From IMG/VR virus record IMGVR_UViG_3300009181_003195, positions 1 to 22,582 of that record: a DNA stretch of 22,582 nt. One strand, 5' to 3'. Position numbers and translations under genes: made by a program. The notes beneath the pieces are model-generated. The model had not been told where the DNA came from, searched no databases, and worked only from the letters and a program-made list of their open reading frames with translations. Positions within the stretch are counted from its first letter, which is position 1; the number at the start of each line of letters is the position of its first letter. The stretch comes from a virus. This document shows positions 5,969-10,735 of the stretch, one piece after another.

Positions 5969-7771
5969 ATGGAATATCTAGGTATTAATATAGATTTAGA
6001 AAGAGATAAACTTTTCGATGAACTTGGAATTAAAAGACTACAAGAATCGTATATGCGAGAAGATGAAACTTCTCCTCAACACAGGTTCGCATTCGTATCA
6101 AAAACATTTGGAACTAATCAGGAACATTCTCAGCGCCTTTACGATTACGCCTCTAATCATTGGCTCAGTTTTAGTACTCCAATCCTTTCTTTTGGTCGTT
6201 CTAAGCGTGGAATGCCTATTTCATGTTTTCTTAACTTTATTGAAGATACAGCGGAGGGTCTAGTTGACAACCTATCGGAAACTAATTGGCTTTCTATGCT
6301 CGGAGGCGGTGTGGGTATTGGTTTTGGTATTAGGTCTGCTGATGATAAGTCTACTGGGGTTATGCCACATCTTAAAATTTATGATGCGAGTTCTTTGGCT
6401 TATCGCCAAGGTCGTACTCGCCGTGGCTCTTACGCCGCTTATCTTGATATCTCTCATCCTGATATCGTTTCTTTCTTAGAGATGCGTAAACCAACAGGTG
6501 ACCCAAATGTGCGTTGTCTGAATCTACATCATGGTATCAACATTACCGATGACTTCATGGAAATCATTGAGAAGTGTATGTTGGATCAGGAATATAATGA
6601 TGATTGGAAATTAGTGGATCCAAACTCTGGTGAAGTAAGAGAGATAGTATCCGCTAAACATCTGTGGCAACAAATCTTAGAGATTCGTATGCACACTGGT
6701 GAACCATACATTCACTACATTGATACAAGTAATAGAATGATGCCACAGTTTCTAAAAGACAAAGGTTTGAGGATTCATCAATCGAATTTGTGTTCAGAAA
6801 TTATTCTACCAACAAACGAACAAAGAACTGCTGTATGTTGTTTATCTTCTTTGAACTTGGAAACTTATGATGAATGGAAAGATAATGAACTTTTTCTTCA
6901 GGACGTGGCCGAAATGCTCGATAACGTGCTTCAATATTTTATTGATAATGCTCCTGATGTTATCAGTCGTGCAAAGTATAGTGCAGAAAGAGAACGTTCT
7001 ATTGGCATTGGTGCTTTGGGTTTCCATGCTTATCTTCAGCGAAAAGGTATTGCCTTTGAAGGAGTGATGGCAAAAGTCACTAACAATCGTATTTTCAAAC
7101 ATATAAGGGAGAGTTTAAATGTGGCAAATGTTAGATTGGGTACCGAGCGTGGGGAAGCTCCGGATGCTAGTGGCACTGGCCAACGTTTTAGTCATCTTAT
7201 GGCTATCGCTCCAAATGCTTCTTCGTCTATCATCATGGGAAATACTTCTCCTAGTGTCGAACCTTATCGTGCTAACGCATATCGTCAGGACACTTTATCG
7301 GGAGCATTTCTAAACAAGAACAAATGGTTGGATAAAGTTATTCAAGATAAATTATCAAATGAATCTGGTAGTTTGTCACAAGATCGTTACAATGATATCT
7401 GGTCATCTATTATTGCTAATGATGGTTCGGTTCAACACTTGGACATTTTAACTGATGATGAAAAAGCAGTATTCAAAACATCCATGGAAATTGACCAACG
7501 ATGGGTTATTGAATTGGCTGCTGACCGTCAACAATATATTGACCAAGCACAGTCATTGAATTTATTCTTTAGACCAGATGCACATATTAAATATCTTCAC
7601 GCCATTCATTTTATGGCATGGAAAAAAGGACTTAAAACTCTATACTACTGTCGTTCTGAGAAGATTGGTAAAGCAGATAAAGTTTCTAAGAAAATAGAAA
7701 GACAAGTTATCAAAGAGCTTGATATGGTTCAAGTGGCACAAGGTAACGATTGTATTGCTTGCGAGGGTTAA
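5969..7771 (+). CDS. nrdA: Class I ribonucleotide reductase, large subunit
   Basis: The 600-residue protein has the catalytic set of class I reductases: Cys86 in GMPISCFLNF, the Asn-x-Cys-x-Glu triad in NLCSEIILPT, the resolving Cys in CCLSSLNL, the radical-transfer Tyr pair in LKTLYYCRSEK, and a C-terminal CIACEG redox pair. It reduces ribonucleotides to deoxyribonucleotides using the radical from NrdB. It is much shorter than the E. coli enzyme (761): the N-terminal ATP-cone domain is missing, since the conserved core begins within the first 40 residues. Without the cone the enzyme should escape dATP shut-off. An AAGGCG site precedes the ATG. The reducing thioredoxin and NrdB lie downstream in the same operon. 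Confidence 0.95.
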   Translation: MEYLGINIDLERDKLFDELGIKRLQESYMREDETSPQHRFAFVSKTFGTNQEHSQRLYDYASNHWLSFSTPILSFGRSKRGMPISCFLNFIEDTAEGLVDNLSETNWLSMLGGGVGIGFGIRSADDKSTGVMPHLKIYDASSLAYRQGRTRRGSYAAYLDISHPDIVSFLEMRKPTGDPNVRCLNLHHGINITDDFMEIIEKCMLDQEYNDDWKLVDPNSGEVREIVSAKHLWQQILEIRMHTGEPYIHYIDTSNRMMPQFLKDKGLRIHQSNLCSEIILPTNEQRTAVCCLSSLNLETYDEWKDNELFLQDVAEMLDNVLQYFIDNAPDVISRAKYSAERERSIGIGALGFHAYLQRKGIAFEGVMAKVTNNRIFKHIRESLNVANVRLGTERGEAPDASGTGQRFSHLMAIAPNASSSIIMGNTSPSVEPYRANAYRQDTLSGAFLNKNKWLDKVIQDKLSNESGSLSQDRYNDIWSSIIANDGSVQHLDILTDDEKAVFKTSMEIDQRWVIELAADRQQYIDQAQSLNLFFRPDAHIKYLHAIHFMAWKKGLKTLYYCRSEKIGKADKVSKKIERQVIKELDMVQVAQGNDCIACEG

Positions 7772-7888
7772 ATGAATGAACCTAAAAAAGGATGGTTATC
7801 TCATTACGAAAGATTGATTGATAATATACTCAGAGTTCTTTGGGTAATATTATTGGTAACTTGGATTGTAACCGAACATAAATTATGA
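7772..7888 (+). CDS. 38-residue single-pass membrane protein
   Basis: The ATG follows the nrdA stop directly (TAAATG) and the stop overlaps the next start (ATGA), so the ORF fills the space exactly. The product has a polar N-terminus (MNEPKKGWLSHYERL) and one membrane segment (about residues 18-33, ILRVLWVILLVTWIV). The function is unknown. Its full integration in the reductase operon by overlapping signals is the main support. Confidence 0.6.
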   Translation: MNEPKKGWLSHYERLIDNILRVLWVILLVTWIVTEHKL

Positions 7889-8532
7889 AACCCACTATCG
7901 CTTTATTTGTGTGTGACCCAAAATGTTCGGTACAATCGACCAATGGTGTAATGAAAGCACTATCACCACATTTCAACTTCAAACTATTTTCAAAGAATGA
8001 AGTTGAAGAAGGTTTCTTTGATAATATTGATATGGTTGTTTTTCCTGGAGGTTTCGGAGATTCAGATTCTTATGATACAATACTAAAGAAGAATAAAGAT
8101 GTGGTTGTTGATTATGTAAACAATGGCGGCAAGTATCTTGGTATTTGTATGGGTGCTTATTGGGCTGGCAAAGATTACTTCAATATACTTGACAATGTAG
8201 ATGTTGTTCAGTATATTAAACAACCTAACAGCTGTACAAAAAGACCTCATGCTAAGAATATACCCACAAATTGGTTTAATGGCCATTATGAAAAAATGTT
8301 TTTCTATGATGGTCCAACTTTTGTTGGCCATGGAAAATATAAAACAATTGCTGCATATGATACAACTGGTTATCCGATGGCCATCAAACAAGATAATATT
8401 TTATTGATTGGTTGTCATCCAGAGAGTGAACAATTTTGGTATGATAGTTATTCTTGGATGAAAGGTAAGTATCATAATGGAGAACATCACGAAATATTAT
8501 TAAATTTAATTGATGAATTTTTGGAGAAGTGA
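7885..8532 (+). CDS. Class I glutamine amidotransferase-like (BPL_N-type) protein
   Basis: The 215-residue product has the class I amidotransferase layout: VVFPGGFGDSDSY near 51-63, a nucleophile elbow GICMGAYWAG with Cys88, and GCHPESEQ with His178 and Glu180, giving a plausible Cys-His-Glu triad. The PGG...GICMGAYW pattern resembles the BPL_N domain, found fused to or near biotin-protein ligases and as stand-alone phage proteins with no assigned reaction. No synthetase domain is attached and none is near, so either it hydrolyses a small amide by itself or it works with a host partner. It sits between nrdA and nrdB, tightly overlapped, which points to nucleotide or cofactor metabolism. Confidence 0.75.
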   Translation: MKPTIALFVCDPKCSVQSTNGVMKALSPHFNFKLFSKNEVEEGFFDNIDMVVFPGGFGDSDSYDTILKKNKDVVVDYVNNGGKYLGICMGAYWAGKDYFNILDNVDVVQYIKQPNSCTKRPHAKNIPTNWFNGHYEKMFFYDGPTFVGHGKYKTIAAYDTTGYPMAIKQDNILLIGCHPESEQFWYDSYSWMKGKYHNGEHHEILLNLIDEFLEK

Positions 8533-8649
8533 ATGCTACTTGAAGTTATAATATATGGATTTTTTACAGCATTCGGATGGTGGGGAGCAAATCATTATGT
8601 TATTGAGCCGTATTTCCCACCGCCTATAGAAAAGAAGGAGACAAAATAA
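8533..8649 (+). CDS. 38-residue membrane protein, unknown function
   Basis: The ATG follows the previous stop without a gap and the stop overlaps the next start (TAATG). The product MLLEVIIYGFFTAFGWWG... has one hydrophobic segment (1-19) and a Pro-rich, charged tail (YFPPPIEKKETK). The function is unknown. A GGAGAAG site (8523-8529) sits close upstream. Together with the next gene it forms a pair of small membrane proteins within the reductase operon. Confidence 0.6.
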   Translation: MLLEVIIYGFFTAFGWWGANHYVIEPYFPPPIEKKETK

Positions 8650-8873
8650 TGGATATGGACCAAGCAGCAGTCTTTTTGGCTGGAAGCATTTTAACAGCGA
8701 TAGGTTTTATTGTTATAGTTGCAACTGCAGTTGTTATCAATAACATCGTACATAAGTACTGGAAAAGTTTTGGATGGAAATTGTTTCCTCTGTATATTCA
8801 GAGTGAACAACCTCCAGTTCCAGAAGAACCAAAGATAGAACCAAAAATGGAAAAAGTGAGGAAAATAACATGA
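8649..8873 (+). CDS. Small membrane protein with Pro/Glu-rich tail
   Basis: The 74-residue product has one long hydrophobic segment (about 8-32, FLAGSILTAIGFIVIVATAVV), then an aromatic/basic stretch (VHKYWKSFGWKLF) and a PVPEEPKIEPK tail. A GAAGGAG site lies at 8635-8641. I recall similar short proteins near nrd genes in T4-like phages of aquatic bacteria but cannot name a function. The stop overlaps the thioredoxin start (ATGA). Confidence 0.65.
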   Translation: MDMDQAAVFLAGSILTAIGFIVIVATAVVINNIVHKYWKSFGWKLFPLYIQSEQPPVPEEPKIEPKMEKVRKIT

Positions 8874-9115
8874 AAAGAATTTTAAGATTTACAGCATCAT
8901 GGTGTGGTCCATGTAAAACTTTGGCTGAGAATTTGGAAAGAGCACAACTTAAAGTGCCAATTGAAGTAATTGATATTGATGTACATGAAGATATTGCTAA
9001 TGAATATGGAATACGTTCGGTACCGTGTTTGATTATGTTAGATGGAAATAATGAAATCAAAAGAATGGTTGGTTCTAAACCAGCAGGTCAATTAAGAGAG
9101 TGGGCAACTATATAA
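8870..9115 (+). CDS. Thioredoxin-like protein
   Basis: The 81-residue product is a minimal thioredoxin fold: the WCGPC redox motif at 11-15 and the cis-proline loop SVPC (Pro52), with the usual strand-helix order. It is shorter than the typical 105-110 residues, lacking the first strand and helix. The likely role is to reduce the C-terminal Cys pair of the phage NrdA during dNTP synthesis, supported by its place between nrdA and nrdB. A glutaredoxin identity is less likely because of the WCGPC motif. Confidence 0.9.
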   Translation: MKRILRFTASWCGPCKTLAENLERAQLKVPIEVIDIDVHEDIANEYGIRSVPCLIMLDGNNEIKRMVGSKPAGQLREWATI

Positions 9116-9116
9116 A

Positions 9117-9752
9117 ATGGCTCACATAGTTGCAAACTTACCACCAGTAAAATGTTTTGTTCGCAGAGAGTTTCTCTATGACTTTCAAAAGGGTCATGGA
9201 GAACTTGAACCATGTTGGTGGATAAGTATTAAGTCTTTGCGAGGTCAAGCATTTCGTATCGAAGCTTATCTAAACAACTATGGTGCATTGTATGATAAAT
9301 TACCATTACACGCATTTTGTTGGAAAACTATCGATAATGAATTACCATTAGACTATCTACAATTATGGGATTGTTTATCATATGATATTACTGTAATTAA
9401 AAAAGCACAGTTACAATCAATGAGGTGTAAGTTTAAGTTAAAGAATGGAGATTGGCAGTATGGTGTTTATATGTTTACAGTTGATTCTGCTCATCCTGAC
9501 TTTAACATACTTGATACAGGGTTTTCTGAAGATATCGAGGATCACAAGTCTTATAATTTCATTATGTGCGATAACGGCCAGTTTGCTGCTCAGCCAAATA
9601 ATAGATTGATTATAATGGAACCAAGTAGTAATCCAAAAGAATTGAAGATGCCAGACTTCAAAGTGGCAACAAATAAATGGTCTGTGGAAACAGATGCGAA
9701 ATGGGCATTAGGAGAAACAAATACAATAATGTACGAACAGGAAAAAGAATGA
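9117..9752 (+). CDS. Conserved phage protein of unknown function next to nrdB
   Basis: The 211-residue protein has no recognisable catalytic motif. It is rich in aromatic residues and Cys (CFVRREF, PCWWISIKS, HAFCWKT, LWDCLSY, FIMCDNGQF) and looks like a globular cytoplasmic protein without signal or membrane segment. I recall similar proteins from T4-like phages of aquatic bacteria in the same neighbourhood. The start is one base after the thioredoxin stop, and the stop overlaps the nrdB ATG, so it is part of the reductase operon. A nucleotide-related or regulatory role is only inference from position. Confidence 0.78.
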   Translation: MAHIVANLPPVKCFVRREFLYDFQKGHGELEPCWWISIKSLRGQAFRIEAYLNNYGALYDKLPLHAFCWKTIDNELPLDYLQLWDCLSYDITVIKKAQLQSMRCKFKLKNGDWQYGVYMFTVDSAHPDFNILDTGFSEDIEDHKSYNFIMCDNGQFAAQPNNRLIIMEPSSNPKELKMPDFKVATNKWSVETDAKWALGETNTIMYEQEKE

Positions 9753-10735
9753 TAAAAAAAACAAATTCAGATATAACTGAAAGTAGAACATATTTCAAAC
9801 CATTTAATTATGCTTGGGCTTATGATGCGTGGTTAAAACATGAGCAATCACATTGGTTGCATACAGAAGTACCAATGATGGAAGATGTTAAAGATTGGAA
9901 GAAAAAACTAACAAATGAAGAAAAACAATTTCTCACCCATATATTTCGTTTCTTTACTCAAGGAGATATTGATGTTGCGGGTGGCTATGTGGACAATTAT
10001 CTACCTTACTTTCCGCAGCCGGAAATAAGAATGATGTTATTGGGTTTTGCTGCAAGAGAAGCATTACACATTGCCGCATATTCACACCTAATTGAAACTC
10101 TAGGACTACCAGAAACAACTTATAATGAGTTTATGGAATATTCCGAGATGAAAGAGAAACATGACTATGTGATGAACATATCATCCAAGAATACAACTAA
10201 AGAGAATACTGCAACCCATATCGCCGTGTTCAGTGCATTTACTGAAGGTATGCAGTTATTCTCCTCTTTCATTATGTTATTGAATTTCCCACGCCACGGT
10301 AAGATGAAAGGCATGGGACAGATTGTTACTTGGTCTATTGTTGATGAAACTCAACATACCGAAAACATGGTGAAATTGTTCAGGACATATATACAAGAGA
10401 ACAATGAGATATGGAACGATGAATTGAAAAGTCGTTTATATACCATTGCTGAGAAAATGGTTGAATTGGAAGATAAATTTATTGACTTAGCATTCCAAAT
10501 GGGTGCTATGGAAGATTTATCATCCGAGGATGTTAAAAAGTATATTCGTTATATTGCAGACCGTAGACTAATCTCATTGGGATTAAAAGGTGTGTTTAAA
10601 GTGAAAAAGAATCCTTTACCTTGGGTAGAGGAAATGATTAACGCACCAACACATACCAACTTCTTTGAGAATAGAGCAACTGATTATGCTAAGGGAGCTT
10701 TATCTGGAGATTGGGGTGATGTTTGGGCTCATTAA
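9749..10735 (+). CDS. nrdB: Class I ribonucleotide reductase, small (radical-bearing) subunit
   Basis: The start is the ATG at 9749, which overlaps the previous stop (ATGA) and has AGGAAAAAG just upstream; the frame runs further 5' only inside the previous gene. The 328-residue product keeps the dimetal ligands and radical tyrosine: an Asp in TQGDIDVAGGY, Glu104, His107 and Tyr111 in REALHIAAYSH (the E-x2-H-x3-Y spacing of E. coli R2), a Glu in TEGMQLFSSF, and VDETQH with Glu and His. It therefore looks like a tyrosyl-radical enzyme and not one of the radical-lacking subclasses. It pairs with NrdA at 5969. Confidence 0.95.
   Translation: MIKKTNSDITESRTYFKPFNYAWAYDAWLKHEQSHWLHTEVPMMEDVKDWKKKLTNEEKQFLTHIFRFFTQGDIDVAGGYVDNYLPYFPQPEIRMMLLGFAAREALHIAAYSHLIETLGLPETTYNEFMEYSEMKEKHDYVMNISSKNTTKENTATHIAVFSAFTEGMQLFSSFIMLLNFPRHGKMKGMGQIVTWSIVDETQHTENMVKLFRTYIQENNEIWNDELKSRLYTIAEKMVELEDKFIDLAFQMGAMEDLSSEDVKKYIRYIADRRLISLGLKGVFKVKKNPLPWVEEMINAPTHTNFFENRATDYAKGALSGDWGDVWAH

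Follow-up and report, generated by a model that had tools for sequence, protein, structure and literature searches.

Gene order at the nrdA–nrdB junction

The DNA analysed, hereafter the window, is a virus fragment of 22.6 kb (22,582 nt) from the IMG/VR record IMGVR_UViG_3300009181_003195. Genes are packed on its plus strand in the order nrdA, TM-A, BPL_N, TM-B, TM-C, trx, phrog_3704, and nrdB. NrdA (5969–7771; phrog_84, 2.7e-162) is the upstream edge of a cargo slot and NrdB (9677–10735; phrog_86, 3.8e-88) its downstream edge, with the true start of NrdB probably later than the ORF start at 9677. The ORF of TM-A, a 38-aa single-span membrane protein (7772–7888), begins directly after the nrdA stop and overlaps by 4 bp the start of the gene under study, an intact ORF (7885–8532) coding for a 215-aa protein of the BPL_N family with a class-I GATase fold. 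TM-B, also a membrane protein of 38 aa (8533–8649), begins directly after the BPL_N stop, and the start of the 74-aa membrane protein TM-C (8649–8873) falls within the TM-B stop codon. A thioredoxin-like protein (8870–9115; phrog_22, 3.6e-10) and a phrog_3704 protein annotated as "ferredoxin" (9117–9752; 7.4e-84) are further cargos of the slot. The sequence-only reading had put the BPL_N gene between nrdA and nrdB with tiny membrane proteins on its flanks, and the coordinates agree on both points. At 619–1635 of the window, an IscU-like ORF and two A-type Fe-S carrier-like ORFs were labelled by eye.

The BPL_N protein

The window protein matches the Pfam family BPL_N (PF09825) with 45.8 bits (4.7e-12; cut-off 24.2), and the match spans only residues 18–97. 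After shorter or truncated sequences and identical copies had been dropped, the window protein and 52 viral relatives found in 78 loci made up an alignment of 53 distinct sequences, each 190 aa or longer. The triad Cys88, His178, and Glu180, described as intact from the single sequence, is kept in 53/53 of them, and loss of the triad, looked for in these homologues, occurs in none. Cys88 (codon 8146–8148) is the predicted nucleophile, and the codons of His178-Pro179-Glu180 (8416–8424) include those of the predicted base and acid. Many other residues are invariant as well, in relatives that are 38–91% identical to the window protein.

The AlphaFold model computed with this alignment has a mean pLDDT of 92 and pTM of 0.92, and was recognized by Foldseek and VIA-align as a class-I glutamine-amidotransferase fold. 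Among the 50 PDB entries listed, PdxT is the top match (Z 20.4, rmsd 2.2 across 176 residues), and all 50, ordered by Z, have GATase-type or related folds, including HisH, PurQ-type domains, gamma-glutamyl peptidase 1 (GGP1), and homoserine succinyltransferase (MetA). The modelled fold alone cannot choose between a glutaminase, a peptidase, a hydrolase, and an acyltransferase. A Cys-His-Glu triad in a GATase-1 fold, which characterizes the class-I glutamine amidotransferase superfamily, is present in the window protein according to the alignment and the model. Scores stay below the cut-offs of Pfam GATase (PF00117; 20.8 bits, cut-off 22.8) and DJ-1/PfpI (PF01965; 11.8 bits, cut-off 26.6), and far below that of HisH. 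No biotin-ligase catalytic domain appeared among the Pfam and NCBIfam matches of the 215-aa protein.

Compared with eight relatives, the BPL_N gene has dN/dS of 0.05–0.12, and it is under strong purifying selection; the values for NrdA against four relatives are 0.11–0.20. The ORF is real, far beyond chance, because of this dN/dS range, and the triad, the predicted fold, and the constraint together make the protein very probably an enzyme.

With PdxT as the closest solved fold and the triad present, the protein could be a PdxT-like glutaminase subunit supplying ammonia to a synthase of the host or the phage. The score against the NCBIfam PdxT equivalog is, however, only 23.3 bits with a cut-off of 181, and PF01174 was absent from 19/19 long phage records, while 11/14 control genomes were positive. 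In line with the earlier reading, which saw no synthetase partner, no conserved synthase was found in phage or bacterial neighbourhoods. The glutaminase subunit is considered unlikely, and the PdxT type was rejected on the PF01174 result.

The nrdA–nrdB junction as a cargo slot

The 78 viral BPL_N loci of the first pass comprise 45 with NrdA upstream and NrdB downstream, six with NrdB only, one with NrdA only, and 26 with neither. Both scans together gave 151 viral loci, some contigs being fetched twice: both nrd genes lie within 1600 bp in 84, only NrdB in 11, only NrdA in two, and neither in 54. Counted by distinct viral protein, 69/100 are linked to nrd genes, which speaks for an accessory of ribonucleotide reductase or of nucleotide metabolism. 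However, when the search was started from NrdA, NrdB was found downstream in 79/80 loci, and among these 79 related nrdA–nrdB loci BPL_N lies between the two genes in 29, and in 50 the fetched stretch contains no BPL_N. Junctions without BPL_N are empty or carry Trx, a ferredoxin-like gene, iscU/iscA-like genes (labelled by eye), or a nuclease/TNase. In a rapidly built tree with 122 proteins, 20 bacterial rows among them and many inner branches weak, the nrd label changes at least 13 times, with six changes forced by well-supported branches. None of the 77 bacterial BPL_N loci is near nrd genes, and several long phage records have NrdA located away from BPL_N.

The NrdA-search counts and the label changes on the tree mark the nrdA–nrdB junction (window 5969–10735; L307-L382) as a hypervariable slot for cargo genes in these phages, BPL_N being one of them. 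That genes of unknown type can be interspersed among phage class Ia nrd genes is described in an earlier paper (PMC3653736). Position within the nrd operon tells little about the function of BPL_N. The link to ribonucleotide reductase or nucleotides suggested from the window is not supported by this mapping: proximity to nrd genes is common, but the slot is variable and the other contexts are unrelated. As the main reading, an accessory of ribonucleotide reductase was rejected on the variable slot and the label changes, and the accessory role in general is very improbable.

Other genomic contexts in phages

Some BPL_N genes lie in the order queE-folE-[BPL_N]-dexA-GT-TGT (DexA labelled by eye). 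The TGT-like protein belongs to phrog_10773, a family of unknown function, and its fold is that of tRNA-guanine transglycosylase (Z 20). It was observed in the phage queE-folE-dexA-GT cluster at L194:8523-9812 and in L250-L306, and phrog_10773 is likely a DpdA-type DNA transglycosylase. A search from this protein found FolE in 54/57 loci, with BPL_N between folE and dexA in 11/54. An amide-forming step of 7-deazaguanine DNA modification would agree with this placement and with the TGT fold, but 43/54 of the queE-folE-dexA-GT-TGT clusters have no BPL_N between folE and dexA, and the 47 long BPL_N records include FolE in only eight and the TGT-like protein in only two. BPL_N is an optional insert there and the pathway genes were not found in most BPL_N records; amidation of 7-deazaguanine was dropped and is scarcely credible.

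Elsewhere, a PlcP/LpxH-like phosphoesterase accompanied by a family-4 glycosyltransferase neighbours BPL_N; further neighbours are a CHASE2 cyclase, a fatty-acid desaturase, and tail-fibre-like genes. The lipid genes, which have sequence matches to Metallophos/LpxH-like and GT4 families, are presumably PlcP and Agt. The phosphoesterase and the GT4 glycosyltransferase were observed in L015, L063, L065, L195, L200, and L202, in some with the desaturase also, and these genes are possibly a host lipid-remodelling set. The CHASE2 cyclase directly adjoins BPL_N in L015:5639-7693 (PF05226 and PF00211), L059, and L073. Another multi-span membrane protein, of 80–90 aa, is encoded immediately 5' of BPL_N in L061, L063, L172, L211, and L105.

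Membrane microproteins TM-A, TM-B, and TM-C

The TM-A and TM-B profiles were run against 40,398 small ORFs from all collected loci; these loci are related, so the microprotein and slot counts are not independent. TM-B gave 67 matches: 65 are in BPL_N loci, all within 242 bp of BPL_N and with a median gap of 1 bp, and the remaining two are in short loci taken from phages that carry BPL_N. It lies upstream of, downstream of, or convergent to BPL_N. Loci without BPL_N carried no TM-B, whether selected by NrdA (0/51) or by TGT (0/46). TM-A gave 26 matches, 24 directly upstream of BPL_N and two in the nrd slot without BPL_N, and TM-B is present in 23/23 loci that have both TM-A and BPL_N. TM-C is more loosely linked, with 17 of its 22 matches adjoining BPL_N and five distant. 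Pooled pN/pS is 0.11 for TM-B and 0.28 for TM-A, so both are under purifying selection. TM-A was seen in the nrd slot at L327:2451-3060 and in L330; in L327, a different protein of ~130 aa follows in place of BPL_N.

The seeds of all three families had been picked for adjoining BPL_N; hence reciprocal searches were made. TM-A was found in 19 loci, with BPL_N adjoining in 17 and TM-B in all 17. For TM-B (A6 query), the best 80 of 175 loci have BPL_N adjoining in 45, about 1 kb away in one, and absent from the fetched stretch in 34; with the L059 query, BPL_N adjoins in 6/8. By whole record, TM-B occurs in 18/47 BPL_N records, adjoining BPL_N in 16 by arithmetic from contig ranges and ~13 kb from it in two (G022 and G023), and in 2/34 control records, both without BPL_N and one a weak match. 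Where TM-B occurs without BPL_N (L431-L495), its neighbours, labelled by eye, include ClpP-like, DNA-ligase-like, lipoprotein, and SPFH-like genes. At L336:8432-8824, an in-frame fusion joins TM-B to a thioredoxin domain, giving a thioredoxin with a natural membrane anchor.

In 91/137 viral BPL_N loci flanked by 400 bp on each side, neither TM-A nor TM-B was detected. The pairing of BPL_N with TM-A/TM-B is frequent but facultative, not obligatory, since TM-B lacks BPL_N in the 34 loci just mentioned among the best 80 of 175 and most BPL_N genes in the nrd slot have neither microprotein. The description of BPL_N as stand-alone is correct insofar as no ligase or synthase accompanies it, but fails for the many copies packed with TM-A and/or TM-B.

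These numbers bear on a simpler explanation, in which BPL_N would be a soluble metabolite hydrolase, an auxiliary metabolic or repair enzyme, and TM-A/TM-B small cargo that happens to share its slots. It agrees with the 68/86 nrd-linked loci with full flanks that lack both microproteins, with the unrelated cargos of the slots (Trx, Fd, iscU/iscA, and TNase), and with bacterial copies that have no conserved neighbours. The adjacency of TM-A/TM-B to BPL_N nevertheless recurs across contexts, orders, and orientations, and the reciprocal TM-A search found BPL_N adjoining in 17/19 loci. The soluble hydrolase is judged somewhat unlikely.

Distribution in bacteria and isolated phages

Bacterial BPL_N was found in 77 loci, mostly of Burkholderiales and Rhizobiales MAGs, 36–50% identical; the sample names of many refer to a lake or pond. 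Mapping the neighbourhoods of homologues, as the earlier reading had proposed, gave a split result: placement near nrd genes is common in phages, elsewhere the surroundings vary, and bacterial copies have no conserved neighbour among the 104 immediate neighbours scanned of 136 listed. The commonest families in these 104 were Ion_trans (9) and zinc dehydrogenases (8). TM-A and TM-B were found in none of the 77 bacterial loci. Among 250 genomes from the order to which one bacterial carrier belongs, the carrier itself gave the single match at E ≤ 1e-20; the bacterial copies are sporadic. On the tree, one change splits bacterial from viral copies (20 bacterial rows). L105, with its phage-like membrane ORF adjoining BPL_N, may be a phage contig.

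The BPL_N protein had no match at E ≤ 1e-5 in 50,697 records of isolated phages, and only two weak partial matches at E ≤ 10; TM-B and TM-C had no match there. The PADLOC anti-phage models gave 0 families for 4/4 BPL_N proteins at E 0.1. In agreement with the earlier reading, which held the reaction of the family not to be established, the literature search found no assigned reaction, and no amidotransferase turned up when the main text of PMC4360716 was searched by term.

A sporadic, mobile, accessory distribution and adjoining membrane microproteins would also suit a protein that serves host takeover by binding or in another non-catalytic way, for instance in superinfection exclusion or control of the membrane or lysis, and keeps the triad for structural reasons. 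This is doubtful, as the triad and many other residues are invariant even between sequences as divergent as those aligned.

Proposed role

The explanation preferred, with a probability of roughly 45%, is that BPL_N is an active cysteine amidohydrolase of class-I GATase fold which, in many phages together with TM-A/TM-B, forms a mobile accessory module. Cys88, activated by His178 and Glu180, would attack a carboxamide or gamma-glutamyl-type amide held beside the putative oxyanion strand P54-G58, and the thioester would then be hydrolysed or handed to an acceptor. TM-A and TM-B, presumably expressed with BPL_N in many phages, would most likely bring it to the inner membrane or control it there, and for this reason its substrate or its product is probably linked to the membrane or envelope. 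The set would travel as an accessory module of freshwater phages, with the nrdA–nrdB gap as one favoured landing site. The frequent adjoining membrane microproteins suggest that BPL_N acts at the host membrane rather than in the synthesis of DNA building blocks.

A more specific version, to which only a small probability is given, has TM-A/TM-B holding BPL_N at the inner membrane, where it would edit an amide in an envelope molecule, such as a lipid with an amide group or a peptidoglycan precursor, and so remodel the surface of the infected cell or keep other phages out. The frequent PlcP-like and Agt-like lipid-gene neighbours would fit with such a membrane-docked amidohydrolase.

The BPL_N family is widespread; in phages, the gene stays under strong selection, changes its genome site, and often comes with microproteins of ~40 residues. 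Phage BPL_N and its microproteins offer a small system in which the family's reaction can be tested. Caution is needed in reading such loci, as insertion inside an nrd operon is a poor guide to function.

Comparison with known systems

The T4 mobE-type insertion, according to PMC3653736, is likewise a gene inserted at the nrdA–nrdB junction; mobE is a homing endonuclease, whereas the cargo here consists of enzymes and microproteins. PdxT/Pdx2, the class-I glutaminase of PLP synthase, is the nearest relative in fold, but has ~15% identity and a distant equivalog score (23.3 vs 181 bits), and no PdxS-type neighbour of the phage protein was seen. GatD of the GatD/MurT pair, which amidates lipid II, shares the class-I GATase fold, and a further likeness, by analogy only, would be work at the inner membrane if TM-A/TM-B recruit the phage protein; the sequence match to GatD is, however, weak (E 0.2), and general inspection of the BPL_N neighbourhood clusters revealed no MurT-type ligase. 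By sequence family, the phage protein resembles stand-alone bacterial BPL_N proteins and the N-terminal part of biotin-protein ligases (PF09825), where the score is above the cut-off, although it does not have the catalytic domain of these ligases. BPL_N members of Agrobacterium and Rhodococcus have the motifs PGG, GxCxGxY, DG, and HxE in common with the phage protein; identity to the plasmid-borne members is only ~24–30%. From stand-alone bacterial BPL_N, the phage protein differs in having microprotein partners.
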